A program made the position numbers and the translations under genes. Source: Thermus arciformis (GTDB lineage Bacteria; Deinococcota; Deinococci; Deinococcales; Thermaceae). Taken from it: 35,307 bases of DNA. The stretch spans positions 1 to 35,307 of the forward strand of contig NZ_FNBC01000023.1 of NCBI RefSeq assembly GCF_900102145.1, read 5' to 3'. Each line of letters starts with the position of its first letter. Within the stretch, counting starts at the first letter, position 1. The notes below the pieces were generated by a model that saw only the letters and a list, made by a program, of their open reading frames with translations, had not been told where the DNA came from and made no database searches. Of this stretch, positions 32,519 to 35,307 are shown one piece after another.

Positions 32519-33119
32519 GGTCCTGCGCTTCGCCGCCAACCTCTACCGCGTCCCGGTGGAAGGGGGGTACTTCCTGGTGGACGCCGGGCTTCCCTGGGAG
32601 GCCAGAAGGCTCCTCTCCCTGCTGCAAGAGCCCCCCAGGCTCCTCTTCCTCACCCACCACCACCTGGACCACGCCGGGGGGGCCCGGGCCCTTTGGGAAA
32701 GGTTCCGGGTACCGGTCCTCGCCCACCCCCAGGAGTGGCCCTACCTCACCAAAAGGAAGCCCCGCCCGCCTCTTCCCCTCCCCCTCTTGGGAAGGGCCCT
32801 GGCCAACCTGGGGCCGGGGATCCCGGAGGAGGCCCTCGCCCCCGCGGAGGAGGGGATGGAGGTCTTCGGCTTCCGGGTAGTCCACCTCCCGGGGCACACC
32901 CTGGGCCAGGTGGGGCTTTTCCGGGAAGGCGTTCTCCTGGCCGGGGACGCCCTCCGGGGAAGGGGCCTTCCCCCGAGGTTCATCAACGAGGACCACACCC
33001 TGGCCCGGAAGACGGTGCGCAAGATCCTGGAGCTTGGGGCGAAGCGGGTCTACCTGGGCCACGGGGGGCCTTTGAGCGGGGAGGAGGTGGCGGAGATCGC
33101 CCGTAAACTGGGGGTATGA
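32505..33119 (+). CDS. Metallo-beta-lactamase-fold hydrolase
   Basis: The product has 204 residues from ATG 32505. Metal ligands are [10 protein letters not shown] (His51, His53, Asp55, His56), LPGHTLGQ, the bridging Asp in LLAGDALRG, and the last His in YLGHGGP. The compact single domain suits the glyoxalase II-like/thioesterase branch; the exact substrate is not evident. Its ATG lies 14 bases inside the end of dxs and its stop overlaps the next gene by four bases, so it sits in a coupled run. No Cys-rich or flavodoxin domain is attached. Confidence 0.9.
33104..33109 (+). promoter_or_regulatory. -10 element inside the hydrolase gene end
   Basis: TAAACT ends 6 bases before the ATG at 33116, with GGGGGT between. 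It could make a leaderless message for the next gene in addition to read-through from dxs. Confidence 0.5.
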
Positions 33120-34093
33120 AAAGGGCCCTGGCCTTTTTGCTCCTGGGCCTTTCCGCCCTGGCCCAGGAGGTGGTGGTCTACCCGGGTTTCGCCGAGGTCA
33201 AAGAGCCCCTGGAGCTTCCCCCCTCCTCCTGGGTCTACCTGGCGGGGGAGCGGCTTTCCCGCATCGTCCCGGGCTCCTTGAGGCTCCTTGGGGTGGAGGA
33301 GGTGGAGAGGGTCTACCAGGGCTCCGCGGTCCTCTTCCGCTACCGGGGGGAGGGGAAGGCCACGCTCCGCTACCTCTACACGGGGCTTTCGGGGGAGGTG
33401 TTCTACACCCTGGAGGAAGGCGTCCTCACCGCCTGGGCCCGCCTGCGCCTGGAGGGAGAGCCCCTCCAGGCGCAAAAGCTCCTCCTCCTCGCCGGGGAGG
33501 CCAGGGCCACCCCCGGGGTGGCCTTCAAGGCCCTGGCCGAGGCCGCCCCGGGAAGCCCCTTCGGCCTTTTCCGCTACGAGCTTCCCCCCAGGAAGCTCCT
33601 CCCCGGGGTGACGGAGGTGCCCTTCCTGAGGGCCGAGGTGGGCCCGGAGCGCCTCCTGCGCTACCAGGCCCCCTTCCGCACGGAGGCCCTCTTGCCCCTG
33701 GAGCGGGGCTACCGCTTCCTCGCCCCCTTTCCCCTGGCCCCGGGAAGCCTGGAGGCCGTGGAAGGGGGGCTTTTCCTGGGCCAGGCCCTCCTGCCCGCCA
33801 CCCCCCAGGGGGAGGTCGCGGAGGTCTGGCTTGGCTTAGACCTCGAGGCCCGCCTCTCCCGCCGGGTGCGCCTCCTCACCCAGACGGACAAAGAGGCCAC
33901 CTACCAGGTGGAGACCCGGCTGAAAAACCCCTACGCCTACCCGGTGACCCTGCGGCTTGCGGAAACCTTCCCCCAACCCTTCCGCCTGGACTTCCCCGGG
34001 GCCACCCTCCTTCCCGAGGGCTACCGCCTGGAGCTTGCGCTAAAGCCCAAGGAGGAGCGCACCCTCGCCTACCGCCTCACCCTCCCCCGCTAA
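33116..34093 (+). CDS. Secreted protein of unknown function, DUF4139-like end
   Basis: The product has 325 residues with a signal peptide ([18 protein letters not shown]). It starts its mature part with VVVYPGFAEVKEPLELPP, then a strand-rich body and a C-terminal domain with TYQVETRLKNPYAYPVTLRL and GYRLELALKPKEERTLAYRL. The end resembles the C-terminus of DUF4139 proteins (a sandwich domain with a KN-type strand and an ERTL-Y-L strand), but I am not sure. No catalytic motif was recognised. It overlaps the hydrolase gene by four bases. Confidence 0.75.
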   Translation: MKRALAFLLLGLSALAQEVVVYPGFAEVKEPLELPPSSWVYLAGERLSRIVPGSLRLLGVEEVERVYQGSAVLFRYRGEGKATLRYLYTGLSGEVFYTLEEGVLTAWARLRLEGEPLQAQKLLLLAGEARATPGVAFKALAEAAPGSPFGLFRYELPPRKLLPGVTEVPFLRAEVGPERLLRYQAPFRTEALLPLERGYRFLAPFPLAPGSLEAVEGGLFLGQALLPATPQGEVAEVWLGLDLEARLSRRVRLLTQTDKEATYQVETRLKNPYAYPVTLRLAETFPQPFRLDFPGATLLPEGYRLELALKPKEERTLAYRLTLPR

Positions 34094-34108
34094 GGACACC
34101 TGTCCTTA
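34091..34108. promoter_or_regulatory. Perfect 8-bp inverted repeat upstream of the radical SAM gene
   Basis: TAAGGACACCTGTCCTTA has two perfect 8-bp arms around CC and lies 24 bases upstream of the radical SAM ATG, in a 38-base gap. Its first three bases are the stop of the upstream gene. The length, symmetry and position fit a repressor or activator operator; the half-site core CCTTA recurs just before the start (34122-34126). Confidence 0.6.
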
Positions 34109-34131: not shown

Positions 34132-34968
34132 ATGAAGCCCGACCTTCACCGCTTCCCCCTCCTGGTGGCCTGGGAGATGACCCGGGCCTGCCTCCTCGCC
34201 TGCCAGCACTGCCGGGCCTCCGCGGTGCCCGACCCCCTCCCCGGGGAACTCTCCACCGAGGAGGGCCTAAGGCTCCTCCGGGAGCTCGCCACCTACACCC
34301 CCAAGCCCATCCTCCTCCCTACGGGAGGGGACCCCCTGGCCCGGCCCGACCTCTTCCTCCTCCTGGAGGAGGCCGGGCGCCTGGGCCTTAAGGTGGGCAT
34401 CACCCCCGCCGTGACCCCCCGGCTCACCCGGGAGGTGGTGGCCCGCTTCAAGACGCTCGGCGTCCACCAGATGGCCATCTCCCTGGACGGGGCAAGCCCC
34501 GAAAGCCACGACGGCTTCCGGGGGGTCTCGGGAACCTTCGCCCTGGCCCTTCAGGCCCTCTCCTGGGCCCGGGAGGAGGGCCTTATGACCCAGGTGAACA
34601 CCACCGTGACCCGGCGCACCTGGAAGGAACTCCCCGGCATCGCCGAGATCCTGGCGGAAAAGGGGGTAGCCACCTGGGAGGTCTTCTTCCTGGTGCCCGT
34701 GGGCCGGGGGGCCCTTTTGGAGCAGCTTTCCCCGGAGGAATACGAGGAGGTGATGCACCTTCTCTTTGACCTCTCCCGTCGCTACCCCTTCAAGGTGCGC
34801 ACCACGGAGGGCCCCATGTTCCGCCGGGTGGCCCTGGAGCGCCGTAGAAGGGAAGGCGGCGAGGACAACGCCCTGGTGGGGGAAGGGCGGGGCGTCCACC
34901 TCTCCGACGGGTTTGGCTTCGTCTTCATCTCCTCCACGGGGGAGGTCTATCCCTCGGGGGTCGTGTAA
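34132..34968 (+). pseudogene. Radical SAM protein, C-terminus lost to an insertion
   Basis: The remaining 278 residues begin MKPDLHRFPLLVAWEMTRACLLACQHCRASA, quoted here only as landmarks: the CxxxCxxC motif (Cys19, Cys23? by spacing in ACLLACQHC) binds the 4Fe-4S cluster that cleaves S-adenosylmethionine. The partial TIM barrel is otherwise intact, with PTGGDPLARPDL and SLDGASPESHD. It resembles the heme-modifying/SPASM group (NirJ/AhbD-like and TIGR04053). Members normally continue past EVYPSG for another 80-100 residues with a Cys-rich SPASM domain; here three unrelated codons and a TAA follow and an insertion sequence begins. The truncated protein probably lacks its auxiliary cluster. Confidence 0.82.
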
Positions 34969-35307
34969 GGATTTATGTGTAAGGGTCCGTCCCCCTTTTC
35001 GGATATTCACCTGCGTACTCACCTCACGCCACCACCCGCAACACCCGGGTGATGGGCAGACCCGCCTGCCCAAGAAGCTGGGCCACCACGCTCCAGGCCA
35101 TCACCCAAGCTTCCACTTGCAGGGCCACCGCCTTCAGCCCCCGTACCCTCCCCACCGCCCCCACCAGCCCCATCGGTCCCTTCAGCAGACCAAAGACCGT
35201 CTCCAGCTCCCACCGCCGCCCCAAAAGCCTCCGGTACGCACCTCTCCCCCGCCGCCGCAGGTTCAAAAGCCGCCCCCTCCCCTTTGGCCTTCCCCGTCTC
35301 CGGTTAT
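34960..35307. mobile_element. Insertion sequence, one end (continues past window)
   Basis: The radical SAM frame loses homology just after about 34960, and a transposase 3' end follows on the opposite strand. The 55 or so bases before the transposase stop contain GTGTAAGG twice (34963-34970 and 34977-34984). The exact left boundary and its inverted repeat cannot be fixed without the other end. The drop in GC near 34965-35000 marks the junction. Confidence 0.75.
35024..35307 (-). CDS. Transposase, C-terminal part (5' end outside window)
   Basis: The frame is open to the right edge; about 93 residues are visible, ending LPITRVLRVVA. The segment RRWELETVFGLLK gives the R-(3)-E-(6)-K spacing of the DDE transposase C1 region typical of the IS4-like superfamily, with the catalytic Glu in ELETVFG. 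It is very basic at the start of the visible part (GRPKGRGRLLNLRRRGRG). It lies on the opposite strand to the interrupted radical SAM gene. The IS family assignment is tentative because the D-D part is outside the window. Confidence 0.85.
   Translation of the reverse strand, partial: NRRRGRPKGRGRLLNLRRRGRGAYRRLLGRRWELETVFGLLKGPMGLVGAVGRVRGLKAVALQVEAWVMAWSVVAQLLGQAGLPITRVLRVVA

Follow-up and report, generated by a model that had tools for sequence, protein, structure and literature searches.

The closest described systems to the locus analysed here come from heme metabolism and from the insertion sequences of Thermus. According to the accessible part of PMC10548856, NirJ carries the cysteine motifs CX3CX2C and CX2CX5CX20-21C, AhbD is an oxygen-independent coproheme decarboxylase, and HemQ/ChdC uses peroxide. 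In Thermus thermophilus, nirJ belongs to the arrangement nirSJM, and a palindrome has been published for NsrR-Th. Among insertion sequences, ISTth4 is listed with a direct repeat of 8-9 bp in a table within the accessible part of PMC6352166. A literature search on the protein family TIGR04053 found no paper, and one on Thermus radical SAM proteins and insertion sequences found no paper title naming the gene described below.

Gene A at the end of the contig

The genome studied, that of Thermus arciformis (G000), comprises 2.44 Mb in 88 contigs, and the window, i.e. the whole stretch of 35,307 nucleotides that was analysed, is the entire contig C59. Its right end carries the beginning of a radical SAM gene, here called gene A, whose intact paralogue, here called B, lies on contig C57 between a cd1 nitrite reductase gene (PF02239) and a cytochrome c gene. 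A COX1-type gene, which we take to be nitric oxide reductase-like, stands before them. This is the arrangement of T. thermophilus nirSJM as given in the accessible part of PMC7694296, and B is likewise a member of TIGR04053. The sequence TTGACCCCGGTCA, found upstream of the B locus, is the core of the NsrR-Th palindrome as it appears in the accessible part of PMC5748679. Gene A differs from Thermus nirJ in that it lies away from nirS, between a gene for a 325-aa protein and a cytochrome c gene, and has a different upstream palindrome. The features at this end of the window are:

33116-34093, plus strand: upstream neighbour of gene A, 325 aa, without a Pfam or NCBIfam match
34094-34105, no strand: GGACACCTGTCC palindrome, 38 bp upstream of gene A, a putative regulator site
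34132-34968, plus strand: 5' part of gene A, TIGR04053-family radical SAM; native residues 1-276, then V-V-stop from the insertion sequence
34951-34958, no strand: CCCTCGGG, copy 1 of the 8-bp target duplication (copy 2 at positions 329-336 of contig C64 of the same genome)
34959-34990, no strand: initial 32 bp, a left inverted repeat, of the IS256-family element by which gene A was very probably cut; the same 32 bp at seven other contig ends; right end on C64, with PF00872
34991-35307, minus strand: 3' end of a second insertion sequence, DDE_Tnp_1 type, nested in the IS256 element and running off the contig
35024-35305, minus strand: 3' end of the transposase of the nested element, 93 aa, with the frame still open where the contig stops

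The frame of gene A encodes 278 aa, and its nearest named relatives are found in Thermus (88-94% identity) and then in Calidithermus (77%). Its match to the NCBIfam profile TIGR04053 (328 bits, below the cut-off of 395) covers positions 2-296 of 366, and Pfam recognised the radical SAM core only; the CX3CX2C core motif is present in the truncated product and the SPASM motif CX2CX5CX20C is absent. Native residues 1-276 are encoded by 34132-34958 plus one base of the insertion sequence, as the last base of the G276 codon is the first base of the element, and V277, V278 and TAA (34960-34968) lie inside the IS256 left inverted repeat. The first-pass annotation, made from the sequence alone, was thus right in matching the frame to radical SAM proteins up to a point short of the profile end, in noting a transposase 3' end behind it on the minus strand, and in describing a foreign end with a stop codon; the foreign codons before TAA number two, not three as it had counted. 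Its proposal that an insertion sequence splits gene A also holds, with the correction that the cutting element would be the IS256-family one starting at 34959 and not the visible transposase, which belongs to an unrelated, nested second insertion sequence.

The missing part and the target duplication

When G000 was searched with TIGR04053, four places were found, namely the intact paralogue B on C57, gene A in the window, C64:320-550, and a weak match (58 bits) on C82. The piece on C64 corresponds to profile positions 290-366. That contig starts inside a Mutator/IS256-type transposase (PF00872 at C64:1-318, E 1.2e-9, 38.1 bits against a gathering score of 21) and continues through an inverted repeat ending CACGACC and through CCCTCGGG into the SPASM tail, which reads FLPLSAGNIREQP...CGVCEYRGLCGGSR...RC. 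On C59, gene A runs up to CCCTCGGG and is followed by the left inverted repeat, GGTCGTGTAAGG... The CX3CX2C core is therefore on C59 and the C-terminal SPASM cysteines are on C64, and when the insert is left out and the two flanks are joined, a single frame of 354 aa results that is collinear with 16 intact orthologues. The earlier suggestion that a recent insertion had removed the SPASM C-terminus, and that a C-terminal remnant flanked by a target duplication should lie beyond it, was borne out in both respects, with the tail found behind the IS256 right end and CCCTCGGG present twice. We infer that C59 and C64 are adjacent; the insert is not bridged by any read or contig.

The left and right inverted repeats of the IS256-family element are alike at 27 of 32 positions. 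The repeat at 34959-34990 recurs with 32/32 identity at seven other contig ends, where it continues as GTTTAATAGG, and with 31/32 at an eighth; the start of C57 carries a related left end (29/32). Comparison of the ends of this element within G000 comprised 10 left and 12 right ends. Half of the left ends (5/10) have an exact 8/8-bp partner, one each, C59 pairing with C64 alone of the 12 right ends; for the remaining five, an exact 8-bp partner was not found among these 12. As a side observation, four more contig pairs can be linked by exact 8-bp duplications (the end of C85, C80, C63 and C42 with C58, C72, C71 and C87). The element shares with ISTth4 the IS256 transposase domain and the 8-bp direct repeat, a comparison between the two assembled ends of the G000 copy and the table description in the accessible part of PMC6352166.

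A second, nested insertion sequence

The second insertion sequence starts 32 bp inside the IS256 element. Its end is present with 100% identity on C25, C23 and C56 (317-318 bp) and on C57 (94 bp), with different flanks each time. A full copy was found in locus L079 of a T. brockianus genome (G006), where it measures 1037 bp by the boundaries used, has the matching inverted ends CCCCCCTTTCGG/CCCCCTTTTCGG, and encodes a transposase of 311 aa with a DDE_Tnp_1 domain (PF01609, E 1.3e-24; IS4/IS5 group). At two copies a direct repeat of 12-15 bp was read by eye. On the far side of the nested element, no joining contig was found in G000 via its 5' end or via the intact IS256 left-end pattern. The 5' end occurs in this genome on C19 and C21 only, consistent with a copy embedded within some other multicopy repeat. 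The visible transposase (35024-35305, minus strand) was considered as the cutter of gene A and ruled out, its element beginning 32 bp inside the IS256 element and its other copies having other flanks.

Gene A and its neighbours across Thermus

Among 27 Thermus genomes searched, gene A is intact in 16, carries lesions in seven and is lacking in three (G009, G013 and G026, without an orthologue-level match); one genome (G020, 65% complete), in which the locus falls at a contig edge, was counted apart. Each intact gene encodes an uninterrupted protein of 356-361 aa that contains both CX3CX2C and CX2CX5CX20C. Homologues thus do not end near residue 275; such an end had been named in the first-pass annotation as an observation that would speak against truncation. 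A CXXCH motif is encoded downstream of gene A in all 16 intact loci.

The seven lesions include two IS256-type insertions, two in-frame deletions, frameshifts and decay. In Thermus sp. 2.9 (G024), an IS256-type element of about 1.26 kb with one open stretch of 408 codons (L082:2204-3477) lies in the gene with an 8-bp duplication, ACCGGGGG, at residues 64-66, and this event is independent of that in G000. Residues 42-186 are missing in frame in G004, and residues 38-305 in T. scotoductus DSM 8553 (G017). T. parvatiensis RL (G016) has two frameshifts, G005 lacks the N-terminus and has one stop and one frameshift, and in G018 a remnant of about 70 residues is left. It may be mentioned that the in-frame deletions (L083:2675-3307 and L105:5872-6135) both begin near residue 40. 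Loss of genes through insertion sequences is routine in Thermus, and an insertion into a dispensable gene is an ordinary event.

The genes at the end of C59 (dxs, mbl, the 33116 gene and A) and those on C64 (cytochrome c, moaC, mfs, usp and folP) were looked for in eight named Thermus loci. The 33116 gene precedes A, and the C64 cytochrome c gene follows it, in 8/8; the former was not found before A in the Calidithermus, Thermaceae MAG and G005 loci. The whole row dxs-mbl-up-A-cytc-moaC-mfs-usp-folP is present in three of the eight (T. caliditerrae, T. tenuipuniceus and T. scotoductus), and it is kept up to usp in T. altitudinis and up to moaC in T. igniterrae. For T. brockianus YIM 77927, Thermus sp. 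2.9 and T. parvatiensis, the stretch examined after A showed none of the C64 genes past cytochrome c.

The cytochrome c following A in G000 (L078:603-1031) is NirM-like and is 54-59% identical to the one following paralogue B. It was found at full length, with 89-92% identity, in the broken-A loci of G024, T. parvatiensis, T. scotoductus, G004 and G005; in G018 it was not found in the stretch examined. Since the cytochrome c gene is kept in G000 and in five other genomes with a broken A, its upkeep seems to be independent of A.

Course of events

One explanation very probably accounts for the split gene. An IS256-family element would have entered codon 276 of the 354-codon gene A, duplicating the 8 bp CCCTCGGG, whereupon the frame would stop in the left inverted repeat after two foreign codons; a second insertion sequence would later have landed 32 bp inside the first. 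The gene became divided between C59 and C64 in the assembly because repeats broke it. Both halves of gene A, the duplication, the frame, the gene order in relatives and both insertion sequence ends on the left side are direct observations; the order of the two insertions we infer. With the SPASM motif CX2CX5CX20C lost, the truncated product is almost surely inactive.

Comparison of G000 with the 16 intact orthologues gave dN/dS values of 0.10-0.22 for the N-terminal and 0.08-0.44 for the C-terminal part of gene A. Pairs of intact genes had a whole-gene median of 0.148 (117 pairs, dS > 0.05), with medians of 0.13 and 0.22 for the two parts. Clear decay was thus not visible by dN/dS in either part of the G000 gene, and a recent date of the insertion is supported.

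Two other accounts of the split gene have to be weighed. Gene A could be intact, its contig end having been wrongly joined to a repeat; the contigs involved do end in multi-copy repeats. We consider such an assembly artefact extremely improbable, because two independent junctions, the left one on C59 and the right one on C64, show correct insertion sequence ends and share an 8-bp duplication that links these two and no others, and because four other end pairs of the IS256 element obey the same 8-bp rule. Moreover, there is no intact A in G000, the family search having given only the two pieces, paralogue B and the weak 58-bit match. It is also conceivable that the truncated 278-aa product still works as a core-only radical SAM enzyme. 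Retention of CX3CX2C and the lack of clear decay would agree with this, but a young insertion would show no decay either, and the SPASM cysteines are kept in 16/16 intact orthologues. The wrecking lesions of other strains sit elsewhere in the gene and so give no hint of selection for a short form, and a functional core-only enzyme seems very improbable to us. Insertion of the IS256-family element followed by inactivity of the product remains the reading that we adopt.

Family and likely function

The intact orthologue from T. caliditerrae (L088) matched TIGR04053 with 466 bits (cut-off 395, positions 2-366), and paralogue B with 476. With other profiles the orthologue scored 314 (AhbD), 214 (NirJ2), 168 (AhbC) and 160 bits (NirJ). 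The second-best of all, AhbD (heme b synthase, TIGR04545), gave an almost full-length alignment, but its cut-off of 500 bits was reached neither by the A orthologue nor by B (348). The same is true of NirJ (TIGR04051), with a cut-off of 515 bits and a score of 161 for B. As B is by its context the Thermus nirJ, the TIGR04051 model apparently does not cover the Thermus type, and profile cut-offs therefore cannot decide between NirJ and AhbD. The cysteine pattern found in A is that of NirJ as given in the accessible part of PMC10548856. Solved structures offered distant relatives only (four sequences at E up to 1e-5, the best being PqqE with 5e-17). In a phylogenetic tree, A (17 rows, support 99/98) and nirJ (3 rows, 97/93) formed separate groups; the tree lacks B of G017, and B of G006 entered it with a longer start.

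Our preferred reading, held tentatively and at somewhat less than even confidence, is that gene A encodes a radical SAM enzyme of the AhbD or NirJ kind, which would act on heme propionates independently of oxygen and be used at low oxygen. Gene A would then be dispensable, as ChdC/HemQ would make heme b in air and nirJ would serve nirS, and this dispensability could explain its repeated loss in Thermus. A ChdC/HemQ-family gene is present in 27/27 Thermus genomes, including G000, and loss of heme synthesis in the latter was rejected on this ground. It had been suggested at the outset that the pathway served by gene A, perhaps heme or peptide modification, may be lost in this strain. The step of gene A itself is likely lost; loss of the heme pathway is too strong a statement, given the intact nirJ beside nirS and the presence of ChdC/HemQ.

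Many SPASM proteins are peptide maturases, and gene A could accordingly encode an enzyme of the RiPP-maturase type instead of a heme enzyme; several maturase profiles are indeed among its lower-scoring matches. The best matches outside TIGR04053 are, however, mostly heme enzymes (AhbD, NirJ2, AhbC and NirJ), the downstream neighbour encodes CXXCH in every intact locus, and the nearest paralogue is, judged by its context, the Thermus nirJ, all of which makes a peptide-modifying role improbable. A second NirJ, dedicated to heme d1, comes closer to the observations, in view of the paralogy of A to nirJ and of the NirM-like cytochrome c next to it, related to that of B. Nevertheless, four of the 16 genomes with intact A (G006, G012, G019 and G023) have no cd1 nitrite reductase match over the cut-off, which argues against a role in heme d1 only, and G000 possesses nirS and nirJ although its A is broken; such a dedicated function is therefore unlikely. 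Under the preferred reading of an AhbD- or NirJ-like enzyme for low oxygen, the locus represents a conserved pair located away from the nir cluster and preceded by a candidate control site, in which a heme-type radical SAM gene is combined with a gene for a cytochrome c. The natural knock-outs of gene A (G000, Thermus sp. 2.9, T. scotoductus DSM 8553 and T. parvatiensis RL) could be compared with intact relatives with regard to heme synthesis or modification by Thermus in the absence of oxygen.

Possible control of the locus

Of 25 loci compared, 24 have the loose palindrome GGACA-N2-YGYCY upstream of A. It stands at -37/-38 in 23 of these, two Calidithermus species among them, and at -48 in the Thermaceae MAG; in T. 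scotoductus, which has lost most of A, the site is incomplete. The loose form occurs four times in the window, counting both strands. The strict form, GGACA-N2-TGTCC, precedes A in only two of the 25 loci (G000 and G012). In the whole G000 genome there are seven strict sites against none for a reversed control pattern, and over 27 related genomes, which are not independent of each other, 150 against 25, the count of sites being equal to the control in G018 and G020.

The seven strict sites of G000 precede A, the cd1 nitrite reductase gene, a gene for a multiheme cytochrome, one for a cbb3-type cytochrome c, a cytochrome c gene divergent from a GAF-domain gene, a TetR regulator gene, and one place without an assigned gene. 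The divergent pair may resemble narC and dnrS, which belong to the nitrate element. The accessible parts of the literature searched gave no sequence motif for DnrT. The site upstream of A resembles those of nirS and three cytochrome genes, which hints at respiratory control and at a possible Thermus regulon. More tentative still than the enzymatic assignment, yet possible, is a wider picture in which A and its cytochrome c would belong to an oxygen- or nitrogen-oxide-controlled Thermus regulon marked by GGGACA-N2-YGYCC ahead of nirS, of the cytochrome c gene divergent from the GAF-domain gene and of other cytochrome genes, with A as an uncharacterised oxygen-independent heme-modifying enzyme whose gene would be a genus-wide hot spot of independent loss, mattering only without oxygen. 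Among the strict palindromes, the one of A is at 34094-34105 of the window, that of the cd1 nitrite reductase gene at L085:2006, and those of the three cytochrome c genes at position 1501 in each of L116, L117 and L120.
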